Source: Chitinophaga pinensis (GTDB lineage Bacteria > Bacteroidota > Bacteroidia > UKL13-3). From it: a stretch of 64,000 nucleotides of DNA. This document shows, piece by piece, positions 25,961 to 31,698 of this stretch. The DNA lies in the NCBI GenBank assembly GCA_945861965.1, contig CAMAWM010000007.1:1-64000 (forward strand), read 5' to 3'. Position 1 is the stretch's first letter; each line of letters begins with the position of its first letter. Both the position numbers and the translations under genes were made by a program. A model generated the notes under the pieces. It saw only the letters and a program-made list of their open reading frames with translations. It was not told where the DNA came from and did not search any database.

Positions 25961-27166
25961 ATGGCAGGAACAGAATTCTATGGCGCTGAAGAGCGAAAAG
26001 AAGTTAATGACGTATTAGAAACTGGAATTTTTTTTCGATTCAATCACGATGCACAACGAAATGGAATTTGGAAAGCCCGAGAATTTGAAACTGAAGTTGC
26101 AAAATTGGTTGGTGCAAAGTATGCACATGCAGTTAGCAGCGGAAGTACAGCCGTAAGTTGCGCTTTAGCATCAGCAGGAATTGGAGCAGGAGACGAAGTT
26201 ATTGTTCCTCCATTTACTTACATAGCAACTATTGAAGCAGTAATATTTGCAGGAGCTTTACCCGTTTTTGCAGAAATAGACGAAACACTTTGCCTAAGCG
26301 CTGAAGGAATTAAGAAAGCAATTACACCAAAAACAAAGGCTGTTTGCCTTGTTCACATGTGCGGACAAATGGCAAATATGGACGAAATAATGTCCGTAAT
26401 TAACGAACATAATTTAATTTTAGTTGAAGATGCCGGACAAGCTTTGGCCGCTAGCTATAATGGAATTTCAACAGGACTTTGGGGGAAAACTGGTTGTTAT
26501 AGTTTTGATTTTTTTAAAATTGCAACTGCTGGAGAAGGAGGTGTAATGGTAACCAACGATGAGAATGCTTATAAATTAGCCGACAATTATTCAGACCACG
26601 GTCACGATCATATTGGAAATAACAGAGGAATGGAAAACCATCCCGTTTTAGGGTTTAATTTTCGCATTTCAGAATTGCATGCTGCCATTGGCTTAGTTCA
26701 AACCAGAAGAGTGCCGATGATTAGAGAAAACAATAACAAACACAAAAAACTCTTGATGAATGAATTGGGTAAAATTGACGGACTTGGCTTTGCAACAATC
26801 CCAGATCCTAATGGAGATTCAGCTACATTTTTGAATTTGTTGTTGCCAAATACAATGGCTGCACAAAGTGTGGTTGATGAATTTAATAAAAACGGAGTAT
26901 CAGGATTTAATTATTGGTATACCAATATGTATCACTTTATAAATCAATGGGGTCACATTAAAAATGGACACGTGGCGGCCAAAACCAATATTCAATTATT
27001 AGGCGCACCTCAAGATTATAATAATTTAGATTTACCAAAAACTCAAGAAACAGTTGGCCGATTGATTTCATTTGGAATAAAAGCAAGTTGGAGTGATAAT
27101 GAAGTAAATTCATTAGCCGAAAAAATCAGTATTTGTATCAAATCAGTATTGAATCAACACGTATAA
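25961..27166 (+). CDS. kdnA: 8-amino-3,8-dideoxy-alpha-D-manno-octulosonate transaminase-like (DegT/DnrJ/EryC1/StrS family)
   Basis: DegT fold motifs (VSSGSTAVSCALASAGIGAGDEVIVPPFTYIATIEA, CYSFDFFKIATAGEGGV) plus adjacency to kdnB-like and kdsA genes. Confidence 0.8.
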   Translation: MAGTEFYGAEERKEVNDVLETGIFFRFNHDAQRNGIWKAREFETEVAKLVGAKYAHAVSSGSTAVSCALASAGIGAGDEVIVPPFTYIATIEAVIFAGALPVFAEIDETLCLSAEGIKKAITPKTKAVCLVHMCGQMANMDEIMSVINEHNLILVEDAGQALAASYNGISTGLWGKTGCYSFDFFKIATAGEGGVMVTNDENAYKLADNYSDHGHDHIGNNRGMENHPVLGFNFRISELHAAIGLVQTRRVPMIRENNNKHKKLLMNELGKIDGLGFATIPDPNGDSATFLNLLLPNTMAAQSVVDEFNKNGVSGFNYWYTNMYHFINQWGHIKNGHVAAKTNIQLLGAPQDYNNLDLPKTQETVGRLISFGIKASWSDNEVNSLAEKISICIKSVLNQHV

Positions 27167-27196: not shown

Positions 27197-28276
27197 ATGC
27201 ATAAAAACTTTAAGAACATAGAAAAAACGGTTTTTGGACGGGGTAGTTTCAATCAACTTTCGGAAATAATTGAACCCAAAAGAAACCTCAATAACAAGTA
27301 TTTTGTATATATCGTTGATGCGTATTTCAAAGGAAAGGACTTAGAAAACAGACTTCATTCAAAACCAGAAGACATTGTTTACTTTATAGATGTTGACCCT
27401 CACGAACCAACAACTGAACAAATAGACCAATTGCGCAATGAAATTTTAAATTCAAAAGGCCTCCCTTCTGGTGTAATTGGAATTGGCGGAGGAAGTATTA
27501 TGGATATTGCAAAAGCACTCTCATTAATGCTGCGCAACGAAGGCAAATCGCAACAATATCAAGGATTAAATTTAATTAAAAATCCAGGAGTTTATCATGT
27601 CGGAATTCCTACAATTTCCGGAACAGGTGCCGAATGTTCAATGACAGCAGTATTAACTGGGCCCGAAAAAAAACTAGGATTAAAATGCGAATGGACTGTT
27701 TTCGACCAGCTGATTTTAGATTCAGAATTGACAGCTAGCGTACCGGTTGATAAATGGTTTTTTACTGGTATGGATACTTTTATTCACTGCATTGAAAGTC
27801 GTGATGGAATACTTAACAATGCTTACAGTATGGCTTATGGAGAAGAAAGTTTAAAGCTTTGTCGCGATATATTTTTATCTGAAAAATCAGGACAGAATGC
27901 TGAAAATGACGATAAATTAATGGTAGCATCTTTGATGGGCGGATTGAGTTTAACATATAGCGAAGTTGGGGTTTGCCACGCATTAAGTTATGGATTAAGT
28001 AAAATATTTGGTGAAAAACATTGCTATGCAAATTGTTTGGCATTTCAACATTTATCAGATTATTATCCTGAAGGAGTAGCAGAATTCAAAACCATGTTGC
28101 AAAAACATTCCATTCAATTGCCAAGTGGATTAAGTAAAAATTGGTCTGACGAAGAAATAACTGCAATGGCAAATGTTGCTTATAATTTACCTCACATGTG
28201 GAATCACGCAATTGGTGAAGATTGGAAAGCGAAAATCACAATCGAAACCATTAAAGATTTATATAAAAGAATTTAA
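27197..28276 (+). CDS. kdnB: 3-deoxy-alpha-D-manno-octulosonate 8-oxidase-like (iron-containing alcohol dehydrogenase)
   Basis: GVIGIGGGSIMDIAKALSLMLRNEGKSQQYQGLNLIKNPGVYHVGIPTISGTGAECS closely resembles KdnB. Confidence 0.85.
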   Translation: MHKNFKNIEKTVFGRGSFNQLSEIIEPKRNLNNKYFVYIVDAYFKGKDLENRLHSKPEDIVYFIDVDPHEPTTEQIDQLRNEILNSKGLPSGVIGIGGGSIMDIAKALSLMLRNEGKSQQYQGLNLIKNPGVYHVGIPTISGTGAECSMTAVLTGPEKKLGLKCEWTVFDQLILDSELTASVPVDKWFFTGMDTFIHCIESRDGILNNAYSMAYGEESLKLCRDIFLSEKSGQNAENDDKLMVASLMGGLSLTYSEVGVCHALSYGLSKIFGEKHCYANCLAFQHLSDYYPEGVAEFKTMLQKHSIQLPSGLSKNWSDEEITAMANVAYNLPHMWNHAIGEDWKAKITIETIKDLYKRI

Positions 28277-28309: not shown

Positions 28310-29137
28310 ATGAAAAAAACTGTAAACGTAGGAAATATTGAATGTGGCAGCGATGAGCTTTTTTTAATCTCTGGTCCTTGTGTTATTGAAGAGGAATCAA
28401 TAATGATGAAAACTGCCGAAACATTAAAAGAGGTTTCAGAACGCTTGAAAATAAAAGTGATTTACAAATCATCGTTTCAAAAAGACAACCGAAGTAGTTT
28501 AAAATACTACGATGGTCCTGGTTTGAGTGAAGGTTTGAACTTGTTAGCAAAAATTAGAGATCAATTTGGCTTCCCAATTTTAACCGATGTGCATTACCCT
28601 GAACAAGCAACTGCCGCAGGCGAAGTGGTTGATGTTATTCAAATTCCAGCGTATTTATGTATGCAATCTACATTATTAGTAGCAGCTGCAAAAACCGGAA
28701 AAGTTGTAAACATAAAGCACGGACAATTTCTTGCTCCAGATAATATGAAACACCCAGTTCAAAAATGTATTGAATCAGGAAACAATCAAATTATTCTGAC
28801 CGAACGTGGCTTTACTTTTGGTTACAACGATTTAATTGTTGATCCACGAAGCTTTTATCATTTAAGAAACATTGGATTTCCTGTAGTTTTTGATGTAACG
28901 CATTGTGTTAGAAAATACGGAACACCAAGTGCAGATCCAAAAGGTGGTGCGCGAGAATTTTTACCTGTATTAAGTCGAGCAGGTGTTGCAGCCGGTGTTG
29001 ATGGTGTATTTATTGAAACACATCCTGAGCCAGCAAAAGCACTGTGCGATGCCGCTTCTCAATTGTGTGTCTATGATTTAGAGGAGTTTTTAAAGCCCCT
29101 TATTGATATTCATAACCTTGAAGTAAAGTACAGATAA
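28310..29137 (+). CDS. kdsA: 3-deoxy-8-phosphooctulonate synthase
   Basis: LISGPCVIEEE, YKSSFQKDNRSS, FGFPILTDVHYPEQ, VFDVTHCVRKYG. Confidence 0.97.
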   Translation: MKKTVNVGNIECGSDELFLISGPCVIEEESIMMKTAETLKEVSERLKIKVIYKSSFQKDNRSSLKYYDGPGLSEGLNLLAKIRDQFGFPILTDVHYPEQATAAGEVVDVIQIPAYLCMQSTLLVAAAKTGKVVNIKHGQFLAPDNMKHPVQKCIESGNNQIILTERGFTFGYNDLIVDPRSFYHLRNIGFPVVFDVTHCVRKYGTPSADPKGGAREFLPVLSRAGVAAGVDGVFIETHPEPAKALCDAASQLCVYDLEEFLKPLIDIHNLEVKYR

Positions 29138-29224: not shown

Positions 29225-30235
29225 ATGGAATTATACCTTGACTCTGCAAATCTGAAAGAAATTGAAGAGGGCTTTAAATTGGGCTTTCTGAATGGATTAA
29301 CAACTACGCCTACATTTATGCAGCGCGAAGGAATTACAGATATAGATGCGATGATAGTAAAGCTATCTAAAATAGTGCCTGTACTGCAAATTGAAGCACT
29401 TGGAGATACCGCAGAAGATGTGTTGAAAGAAGCCAAACGTCAGCTTGATTTAGGTTTAGATAAAACCAAAACTGTATTTAAAATTCCTGTTTCATTAGAA
29501 GGAGTTCGAGCTTGCAAAATGCTTCGCAACGAAGGATTGCTTGTTAATGTTCATTTGGTTTACACTTTGCAGCAAGCGTATATGGCAATGCAAGCAGGTG
29601 CAACTTATGTTTGCCCATTGGTTGGTCGCTTACAAGATCAAGGACACGATGCATTGGATTTAGTTTCTCAAATAGTTGCTGCTGTAAATTTTTATGGCTA
29701 CGATACCAAGGTTATGTTTTCGTCAGTAAGAACAATGGAGCATGTTAGAAATGCTTTGAATTTGGGCGTGCACACCATTACAGTTCCATTAAAAATAATT
29801 AAACAACTAACCGAAAATCATTTTACAACCGTTGGAACAGATCAGTTTATTCGCGACACTCGCTTAATGACTGTTCGTGTAAAAGATGCAATCAATAGTG
29901 TAAATCCATTGGTTAGCGAAGACACTTCTTTGGCCGATGCTATAGTAAAAATGACCGAATTTGGATTTGGTGCAATTACAGTAACAAATAAAGATGGTTC
30001 GATAAAAGGTGTTTTCACTGATGGTGAATTAAGAAGAAAAATTCAAGCTGAAGGCCGAGATGTTCTCAATCACAAAATTGGTGATTTTACATACAATACT
30101 CCAGTAAGTATTGATGCGGATGCACTATTAAATGATGCTGCTGCAATTTTCAAAACCACTAAAGTGGATACATTGCTTGTAACGGCAAATGGAAAACCAA
30201 TTGGCATGTTAGACATACAAGATTTGGAAGATTAA
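29225..30235 (+). CDS. Transaldolase/FSA-like domain fused to a C-terminal CBS-domain pair
   Basis: aa 1-~216 transaldolase-like (MELYLDSANL, TTTPTFM, TVFKIPVSLEG, VCPLVGRLQDQG); aa ~226-336 CBS pair with KdsD-like GVFTDGELRRKI and GMLDIQDLED. Confidence 0.9.
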   Translation: MELYLDSANLKEIEEGFKLGFLNGLTTTPTFMQREGITDIDAMIVKLSKIVPVLQIEALGDTAEDVLKEAKRQLDLGLDKTKTVFKIPVSLEGVRACKMLRNEGLLVNVHLVYTLQQAYMAMQAGATYVCPLVGRLQDQGHDALDLVSQIVAAVNFYGYDTKVMFSSVRTMEHVRNALNLGVHTITVPLKIIKQLTENHFTTVGTDQFIRDTRLMTVRVKDAINSVNPLVSEDTSLADAIVKMTEFGFGAITVTNKDGSIKGVFTDGELRRKIQAEGRDVLNHKIGDFTYNTPVSIDADALLNDAAAIFKTTKVDTLLVTANGKPIGMLDIQDLED

Positions 30236-30547: not shown

Positions 30548-30585
30548 TTACAATTGTATTTAGTATTGTGTTGTCCTATTTTAAA

Positions 30586-31698
30586 ATGACAAAAAAACTA
30601 CTTCTACTTTCGTTTTCAATTTTTATTTATTCAATTGTCATTTCTCAAAATAGCAATGTAGGATTTCGCGTAAAGTATTTAGAAGGAATTAATGTTATTC
30701 CTACCGGAGTAACTGGTTTTGAGAATGAAAACATAGTTGGAAATTCTGCAAGTGGATTTGAAATTGGAATTGTAAAACAAAGCGAAGCGAAAAAAGATTG
30801 GGAAAAATTATTTGGATCTCCTCGTTTATCTTTATGTTTTAGTAAAATTTCATTTTCCGAAAACAAAATATTTGGCGATGTATTTACTCTTATTCCAGGT
30901 TTCGAAACAGATATTTTAAAACTTAAAAACAACTTCCTCACTACTAAATTTGGAATGGGCGCTTCGTACAATACGGAGGTGTATAACAAAGAAAGCAATC
31001 GAATTAATCGCAACGCAAGCAATTTTAATTTCGCCTTTCAAATAGAAATAAGTTGGCAAAAAAAAATCAAACCCAATTTATTATTTTCAATTGATTTTGG
31101 ATTTTTACATTGTTCAAATGGAAGTTTTAAAATTCCAAACGATGGATTAAATATTGCTTTTGTTAAAGCGGGAATAAATTATTATTTGAAATCGTATCAA
31201 ATCAACACCACAAAAATTTCGTTAAAATCCGAAAAATCAAATTGGTATTACCAAACATTTTTAGCGTATGGATTTAAAGAACAAGGATTAACCGGACCGC
31301 ATAAATATTCAACCATTACGTACAACCATCAACTGCTTAAACCTATAAATAAAATTTTGGATGCGGGAATAATTCTCGACTTGTTTTACGATGCTACTCC
31401 CTACATTCGAAGGTTTCTTCCTGCTAATTTAAATGAAATTTCCGAAACGGAAAAAAATCATGCAGCAATTGGATTTGGTTCAGAATTAAAAATCGGAAAC
31501 TTTAGTTTGCCTTTACACATAATGCATTATTTTTTTAATTTAAATACAATAAATAAAGAAAAAATGTACACTCGATTTGGAGCAAAATACATGCTGAACA
31601 ATAACATATTTATTTCTGCAACTTTTAAAGGAACCATAACAAACACATCAATTATTCAAAGCGATTTTATGGAGTGGGGAGTTGGAATTAAATTATAA
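30586..31698 (+). CDS. Acyloxyacyl hydrolase / PagL-like lipid A deacylase family outer-membrane protein
   Basis: Signal peptide after MTKKLLLLSFSIFIYSIVISQ; HCSNGSFKIPNDGLN matches PagL-type HxSNG...PNxGxN motif; ATG at 30586 preferred. Confidence 0.75.
   Translation: MTKKLLLLSFSIFIYSIVISQNSNVGFRVKYLEGINVIPTGVTGFENENIVGNSASGFEIGIVKQSEAKKDWEKLFGSPRLSLCFSKISFSENKIFGDVFTLIPGFETDILKLKNNFLTTKFGMGASYNTEVYNKESNRINRNASNFNFAFQIEISWQKKIKPNLLFSIDFGFLHCSNGSFKIPNDGLNIAFVKAGINYYLKSYQINTTKISLKSEKSNWYYQTFLAYGFKEQGLTGPHKYSTITYNHQLLKPINKILDAGIILDLFYDATPYIRRFLPANLNEISETEKNHAAIGFGSELKIGNFSLPLHIMHYFFNLNTINKEKMYTRFGAKYMLNNNIFISATFKGTITNTSIIQSDFMEWGVGIKL

Follow-up and report, generated by a model that had tools for sequence, protein, structure and literature searches.

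Kdo synthesis is taken to follow one uniform route, with the isomerase KdsD as its first enzyme. In the 64,000 nt of Bacteroidota DNA analysed here (the window), kdsA is followed by a gene for a transaldolase-like barrel fused to a pair of CBS repeats (Table 1), and the question is which enzyme supplies KdsA with D-arabinose-5-phosphate (A5P). An earlier note on this DNA had suggested a CBS-regulated enzyme that feeds Kdo or Kdo8N synthesis without KdsD. At the genome level this holds up, as the genome has no KdsD and the two genes have a nearly exclusive distribution; the regulation and the chemistry stay conditional. That the fusion stands in for KdsD is likely, and well supported at this level.

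Table 1. Positions of the fusion gene, its parts and its upstream neighbours in the window
Feature	Position (nt)	Strand	Evidence or remark
kdnA, 8-amino-3,8-dideoxy-octulosonate transaminase	25961..27166	+	PDB 5k8b, E 1.2e-127
kdnB, Kdo 8-oxidase (iron-containing ADH family)	27197..28276	+	PDB 5k8c, E 2.3e-117
kdsA, Kdo-8-phosphate synthase, fusion-linked subtype	28310..29137	+	TIGR01362, 333.7 bits (cut-off 314)
Transaldolase/FSA-CBS-CBS fusion protein, candidate KdsD replacement	29225..30235	+	336 aa
TAL_FSA barrel domain, aa 3-201	29231..29827	+	Pfam PF00923, E 2.6e-35; Foldseek 1vpx, 3r8r, 3s0c
Codon of Schiff-base lysine K86 (FSA K85)	29480..29482	+	invariant among genuine members
Codon of H110 (Thr109 of FSA/transaldolases), catalytic-water position	29552..29554	+	His family-specific, invariant
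CBS repeat 1, TDG(D/E)LRR motif common to KdsD	29903..30043	+	PF00571
CBS repeat 2	30095..30226	+	PF00571

A transaldolase barrel with a KdsD-like CBS tail

The open reading frame lies at the stated coordinates and Pfam confirmed the domains of the aldolase–CBS fusion that had been read from the sequence; this arrangement is directly established. The protein matched the superfamily profile PF00923 (TAL_FSA; 122.6 bits, cut-off 27) and stayed under the cut-off of the FSA/transaldolase equivalog TIGR00875 (165.9 bits, cut-off 245.95). Structure prediction, which the earlier note had advised, also returned a transaldolase fold: an AlphaFold2 model built on an alignment of 46 relatives was confident (mean pLDDT 87), and its barrel superposed on transaldolase structures from Thermotoga, Thermoplasma and Bacillus (1vpx, 3r8r, 3s0c) with a Foldseek probability of 1.00 and a TM-score by target of ∼0.85. 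A model from the single sequence (pLDDT 38.8) was discarded. The barrel is 33–38% identical to transaldolases and FSA, and homologues of the whole fusion across Bacteroidia are 54–89% identical to the window protein.

The tail was found to be nearest to the CBS pairs of KdsD, in line with the resemblance pointed out in the earlier note. Its match to TIGR00393 (KpsF/KdsD; 63 bits) covered only model positions 153–267, which are the CBS part, and its best match among solved structures was the CBS pair of arabinose-5-phosphate isomerase (4o9k, 1e-11). Like KdsD/KpsF/GutQ, the fusion ends in a CBS pair that carries the TDG(D/E)LRR motif, and its gene lies beside kdsA, but it has no SIS isomerase domain.

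The fusion takes the KdsD position in a Kdo operon

The genes in the window run kdnA–kdnB–kdsA–fusion. The kdsA gene that had been recognised directly upstream of the fusion exceeded the cut-offs of both TIGR01362 and NF003543 (349.5 bits for the latter). In relatives, the order is (waaA–)kdnA–kdnB–kdsA–fusion–kdsC-like–kdsB. A survey of the neighbourhood in 95 homologous loci found kdsA upstream of the fusion in at least 66, always on the same strand, and a KdsC-like HAD phosphatase in at least 73, no more than 150 bp downstream in 64; kdnB, kdnA, kdsB and waaA were present in at least 47, 45, 34 and 10 loci, respectively, all of these counts being lower bounds because many of the loci end at contig ends. 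Complete fusion operons lack the KdsD step only. Since about half of the 36 KdsD loci that we fetched have kdsA within reach, the fusion occupies a position in which KdsD is often found. The window shares with the Shewanella Kdo8N pathway (KdnA, 5k8b; KdnB, 5k8c) the placement of kdnA and kdnB beside kdsA, but differs from it in that the fusion would carry out the A5P-supplying step. No KdsC-like HAD phosphatase was found within the window. Shortly downstream of the fusion, at 30568–31698, lies the gene for a protein with a PagL-like lipid A 3-O-deacylase domain, a lipopolysaccharide-related function.

Fusion and KdsD are almost mutually exclusive

The earlier note had named the presence of a canonical kdsD at another site in the genome as part of the grounds for rejecting the proposed role, and this check came out in favour of the proposal. 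A TIGR00393 profile search of the window genome assembly (96% complete) found no KdsD: its three matches were the CBS tail of the fusion, a second CBS protein and a short protein with a SIS domain. This last one, the sole SIS match in the genome, is GmhA and scored above its curated cut-off. A canonical kdsB is located on another contig.

The same complementarity was observed directly in wider samples. Among 65 genomes of the window's order, the fusion is present in 35 and KdsD in 21, and the two never occur together; here every first-look candidate was scored. Nine order genomes have neither gene, six of them without kdsA (five belonging to genus g143), and the other three comprise two incomplete assemblies (70 and 88%) and one that is 96% complete. 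In the phylum sample, kdsA was present in 219 of 297 genomes, with KdsD in 213 of these, the fusion in five and neither in one (G023). Across Bacteroidia (388 genomes), the genuine fusion was found in 70 and KdsD in 223, with only four genomes holding both, so KdsD is absent from 66 of the 70 fusion genomes (Fisher p 6e-24, a value that ignores relatedness). The class and phylum searches may occasionally miss a KdsD, as they scored no more than a few top candidates from each genome, a weakness from which the order search is free. A fairer measure of exclusivity than the p-value is given by the seven families in which fusion genera and KdsD genera both occur (f1, f3, f9, f11, f55, f83 and f94), in each of which the sampled fusion genomes are without KdsD. 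The survey across Bacteroidota that the earlier note had called for thus revealed two nearly exclusive genes in Bacteroidia. Moreover, kdsA was present in 57 of the 58 fusion genomes tested.

The genomes with both genes fall into two kinds. In genus g262 (G568, G589 and G660), the fusion and a full KdsD occur with a single true kdsA (loci L211, L214 and L215 in G568), and G641 (L197, L212 and L213) has the fusion, KdsD and two kdsA genes, one adjoining the fusion and one elsewhere. Five matches from family f53 (37–41% identity) were excluded from the genuine fusions, as they have lost the Schiff-base lysine and their genomes are without KdsA. These sister proteins (L190–L194; G401, G432, G532, G459 and G483) keep the barrel–CBS layout and have lost most site residues; given these losses and the lack of KdsA, their role is probably a different one and perhaps not catalytic. 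Typical Bacteroidota fusions also occur in records labelled Saccharibacteria and Azovibrio (L067 and L112), which are probably mis-binned or mislabelled metagenome contigs.

A remodelled active site that would fit a proposed A5P aldolase

Across 86 close homologues and 15 more distant ones, the residues D6, T26, T27, T28, E57, K86, N108, H110, C130, L132, R135, S167 and R169 are invariant. The Schiff-base lysine, Asp6, the glutamate and the phosphate clamp (R135, S167 and R169) are unchanged throughout the family. Ordinary transaldolases of the same phylum have N28, Thr at 110, Ser at 130 and Phe at 132, whereas the fusion family has the invariant replacements N28T, T109H, A/S129C and Y/F131L (FSA numbering). 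The differences spotted by eye in the earlier note, TTTPT for TTNPS and Leu for the Tyr/Phe before VGR, are correct. These replacements, the CBS pair and the location in a Kdo operon set the fusion apart from FSA/TalC-type transaldolases (TIGR00875, PF00923; 1l6w, 3r8r, 1vpx, 3s0c), with which it shares the barrel, the Schiff-base lysine, Asp6, Glu57 and the Arg-Ser-Arg phosphate clamp.

E. coli FSA binds its catalytic water through Q59, T109 and Y131, stabilises dihydroxyacetone through N28 and A129, and holds the phosphate with R134 and K168 (PMC13259622). The FSA changes S30T and K168R reduce the KM for glyceraldehyde-3-phosphate (G3P) (PMC13259622), and the fusion family naturally has T30 and R169. 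Set against these roles, the fusion has kept the lysine and the G3P clamp and exchanged the donor and water positions. The FSA position Q59 is a glutamate, with Glu57 as in transaldolase, so that the water triad Q59-T109-Y131 reads E-H-L, and the remodelled N28T and A/S129C are the positions that hold the extra hydroxymethyl group of the donor.

A5P is fructose-6-phosphate without C1, with the stereochemistry of C3–C5 retained, and an A5P aldolase would therefore fit a kept clamp and an altered C1 pocket. The reading we favour, at about even confidence, is that the fusion is a non-orthologous replacement of KdsD, regulated by its CBS pair, which delivers A5P to KdsA by an aldol route. Taken separately, A5P is probably the product, and the case for the aldol route is evenly balanced. 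Glycolaldehyde would be bound to K86 as a Schiff base, the resulting enamine would add to G3P held by R135, S167 and R169, and hydrolysis would release the aldose phosphate, most likely A5P, for KdsA to condense with PEP.

The joining of glycolaldehyde and G3P to a pentose 5-phosphate, which the earlier note had named as an FSA-type reaction, is reported for E. coli FSA with A5P as the product, glycolaldehyde being the preferred donor and G3P the acceptor (PMC6298115; also PMC6900487 and PMC9947464). The same enzyme cleaves A5P with a KM of 0.65 mM and a kcat of 3.6 per s, compared with 24 per s for KdsD on ribulose-5-phosphate (PMC6900487). Synthetic Ara5P aldolase routes that employ E. coli FsaA (PMC6298115, PMC6900487, PMC9947464) share the reaction and the superfamily proposed here, but they were engineered on a promiscuous activity, whereas the fusion is a candidate natural enzyme.

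Against this explanation stand the E-H-L water triad, the altered KdsA linked to the fusion and genus g262 with both enzymes. Supply also counts against the aldol route: we know of no abundant source of glycolaldehyde here, and dihydroneopterin aldolase alone would, by estimate, give far too little. A published estimate puts the glycolaldehyde that an Ar5P shunt would need at >1 mM if no irreversible step adjoins glycolaldehyde (PMC6298115).

Supply would pose no problem for a true isomerase that converts ribulose-5-phosphate, which is abundant, to A5P via an enediol. Here E57 would act as the base, H110 as the acid and K86 as an electrostatic catalyst, on the model of the Lys-His-Glu set of triose-phosphate isomerase; the family-specific invariant histidine beside Glu57 and Lys86 provides the groups needed, and the complementary distribution suits such an enzyme equally well. 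However, the family retains the Schiff-base lysine, Asp6 and the clamp for the phosphate of G3P, as aldol chemistry predicts, and we know of no isomerase in the transaldolase family. We consider an isomerase somewhat unlikely.

KdsA and KdsC partners have diverged with the fusion

The main uncertainty over the product of the fusion comes from its altered KdsA and KdsC partners. Fusion-linked KdsA (loci examined: the window gene, L034–L113 and L195–L209) forms one fully supported clade on a long stem and differs at no fewer than nine positions that are invariant elsewhere. In 70 sequences, the changes A61D, F117Y, R120M, K139H, N176D and Q205R are invariant, at positions that are invariant in 17 KdsD-linked KdsAs and, for several, also in E. 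coli; numbering and comparison follow the E. coli KdsA sequence. The linked KdsC-like HAD phosphatase (e.g. L040:7772-8560) reached 48 bits against a KdsC cut-off of 208, with no Pfam match. As judged from these sequences, the A5P-supplying enzyme, KdsA and KdsC appear to have diverged together while KdsB stayed canonical, which would reflect either mutual adaptation of the three enzymes or a different early intermediate. Because otherwise invariant residues are altered, the substrate of fusion-linked KdsA may not be plain A5P. At the same time, this KdsA keeps the residues for PEP, metal and the phosphate of A5P (K53, K58, N60, R61, K136, R166, H198, D247 and C24), among them those reported as contacts of PEP and of that phosphate (PMC6650799). 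An amine-for-phosphate substrate was dropped as the main idea, since the operon has a KdsC-like phosphatase and the phosphate residues are kept.

The long-stem KdsA clade with its many changed positions and the phosphatase far under the KdsC cut-off could also mean that the product of the fusion is another aldose phosphate, which the altered KdsA and the KdsC-like enzyme would turn into Kdo or an analogue by a parallel route. We regard this as quite unlikely, as KdsA retains its residues for PEP, for metal and for the phosphate of A5P, KdsB is canonical, and KdnA and KdnB match enzymes that act on Kdo. A broader picture, in which the fusion together with the altered KdsA and altered KdsC-like phosphatase would form a parallel Kdo module with non-textbook early intermediates, dedicated to amino-Kdo lipopolysaccharide and controlled by the CBS sensor, is unlikely. 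That the fusion merely lies in the operon, as a transaldolase of the ordinary kind or as a regulator, with A5P made by an unrecognised enzyme elsewhere, is very unlikely: the barrel is ∼35% identical to transaldolases and G023 has kdsA without KdsD or fusion, but the window genome already has a separate transaldolase with standard residues (on contig C2), the donor and water residues of the fusion are changed without exception, and KdsD loss tracks the fusion in seven families.

Relation to known routes

The fusion points to an undescribed start of Kdo synthesis in many Bacteroidota, and its presence in place of KdsD accounts for the KdsD missing from the genome annotation of these bacteria. 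Searches of the open literature, with most subscription journals outside their scope, returned no earlier description of such a protein (A5P with transaldolase and CBS) and no natural A5P-aldolase route to Kdo. If the fusion does replace KdsD, the Kdo pathway can begin with a different enzyme, perhaps from C2 and C3 units instead of ribulose-5-phosphate, and FSA-type chemistry gains a clear natural role. The fusion could then be a natural A5P aldolase of the kind sought by synthetic-metabolism groups (PMC9947464).

The CBS pair and its possible ligand

The earlier note had pictured a KdsD whose SIS domain was swapped for an aldolase. As a recent event involving the local KdsD, this was not supported, since the CBS pairs of the fusions and those of local KdsDs form separate groups in a tree that is unrooted because outgroup CBS pairs were too distant. 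One regulatory CBS module would, if the proposal is true, serve unrelated catalytic domains at one metabolic step. We propose that the pair responds to CMP-Kdo or CMP-Kdo8N, formed late in the pathway, and sets the rate accordingly; judging by its sequence, the ligand may be CMP-Kdo8N rather than CMP-Kdo. Within the CBS region (29903–30226), the fusion invariantly carries D315, D330 and Q332 in place of the Thr, His and His of most KdsDs.
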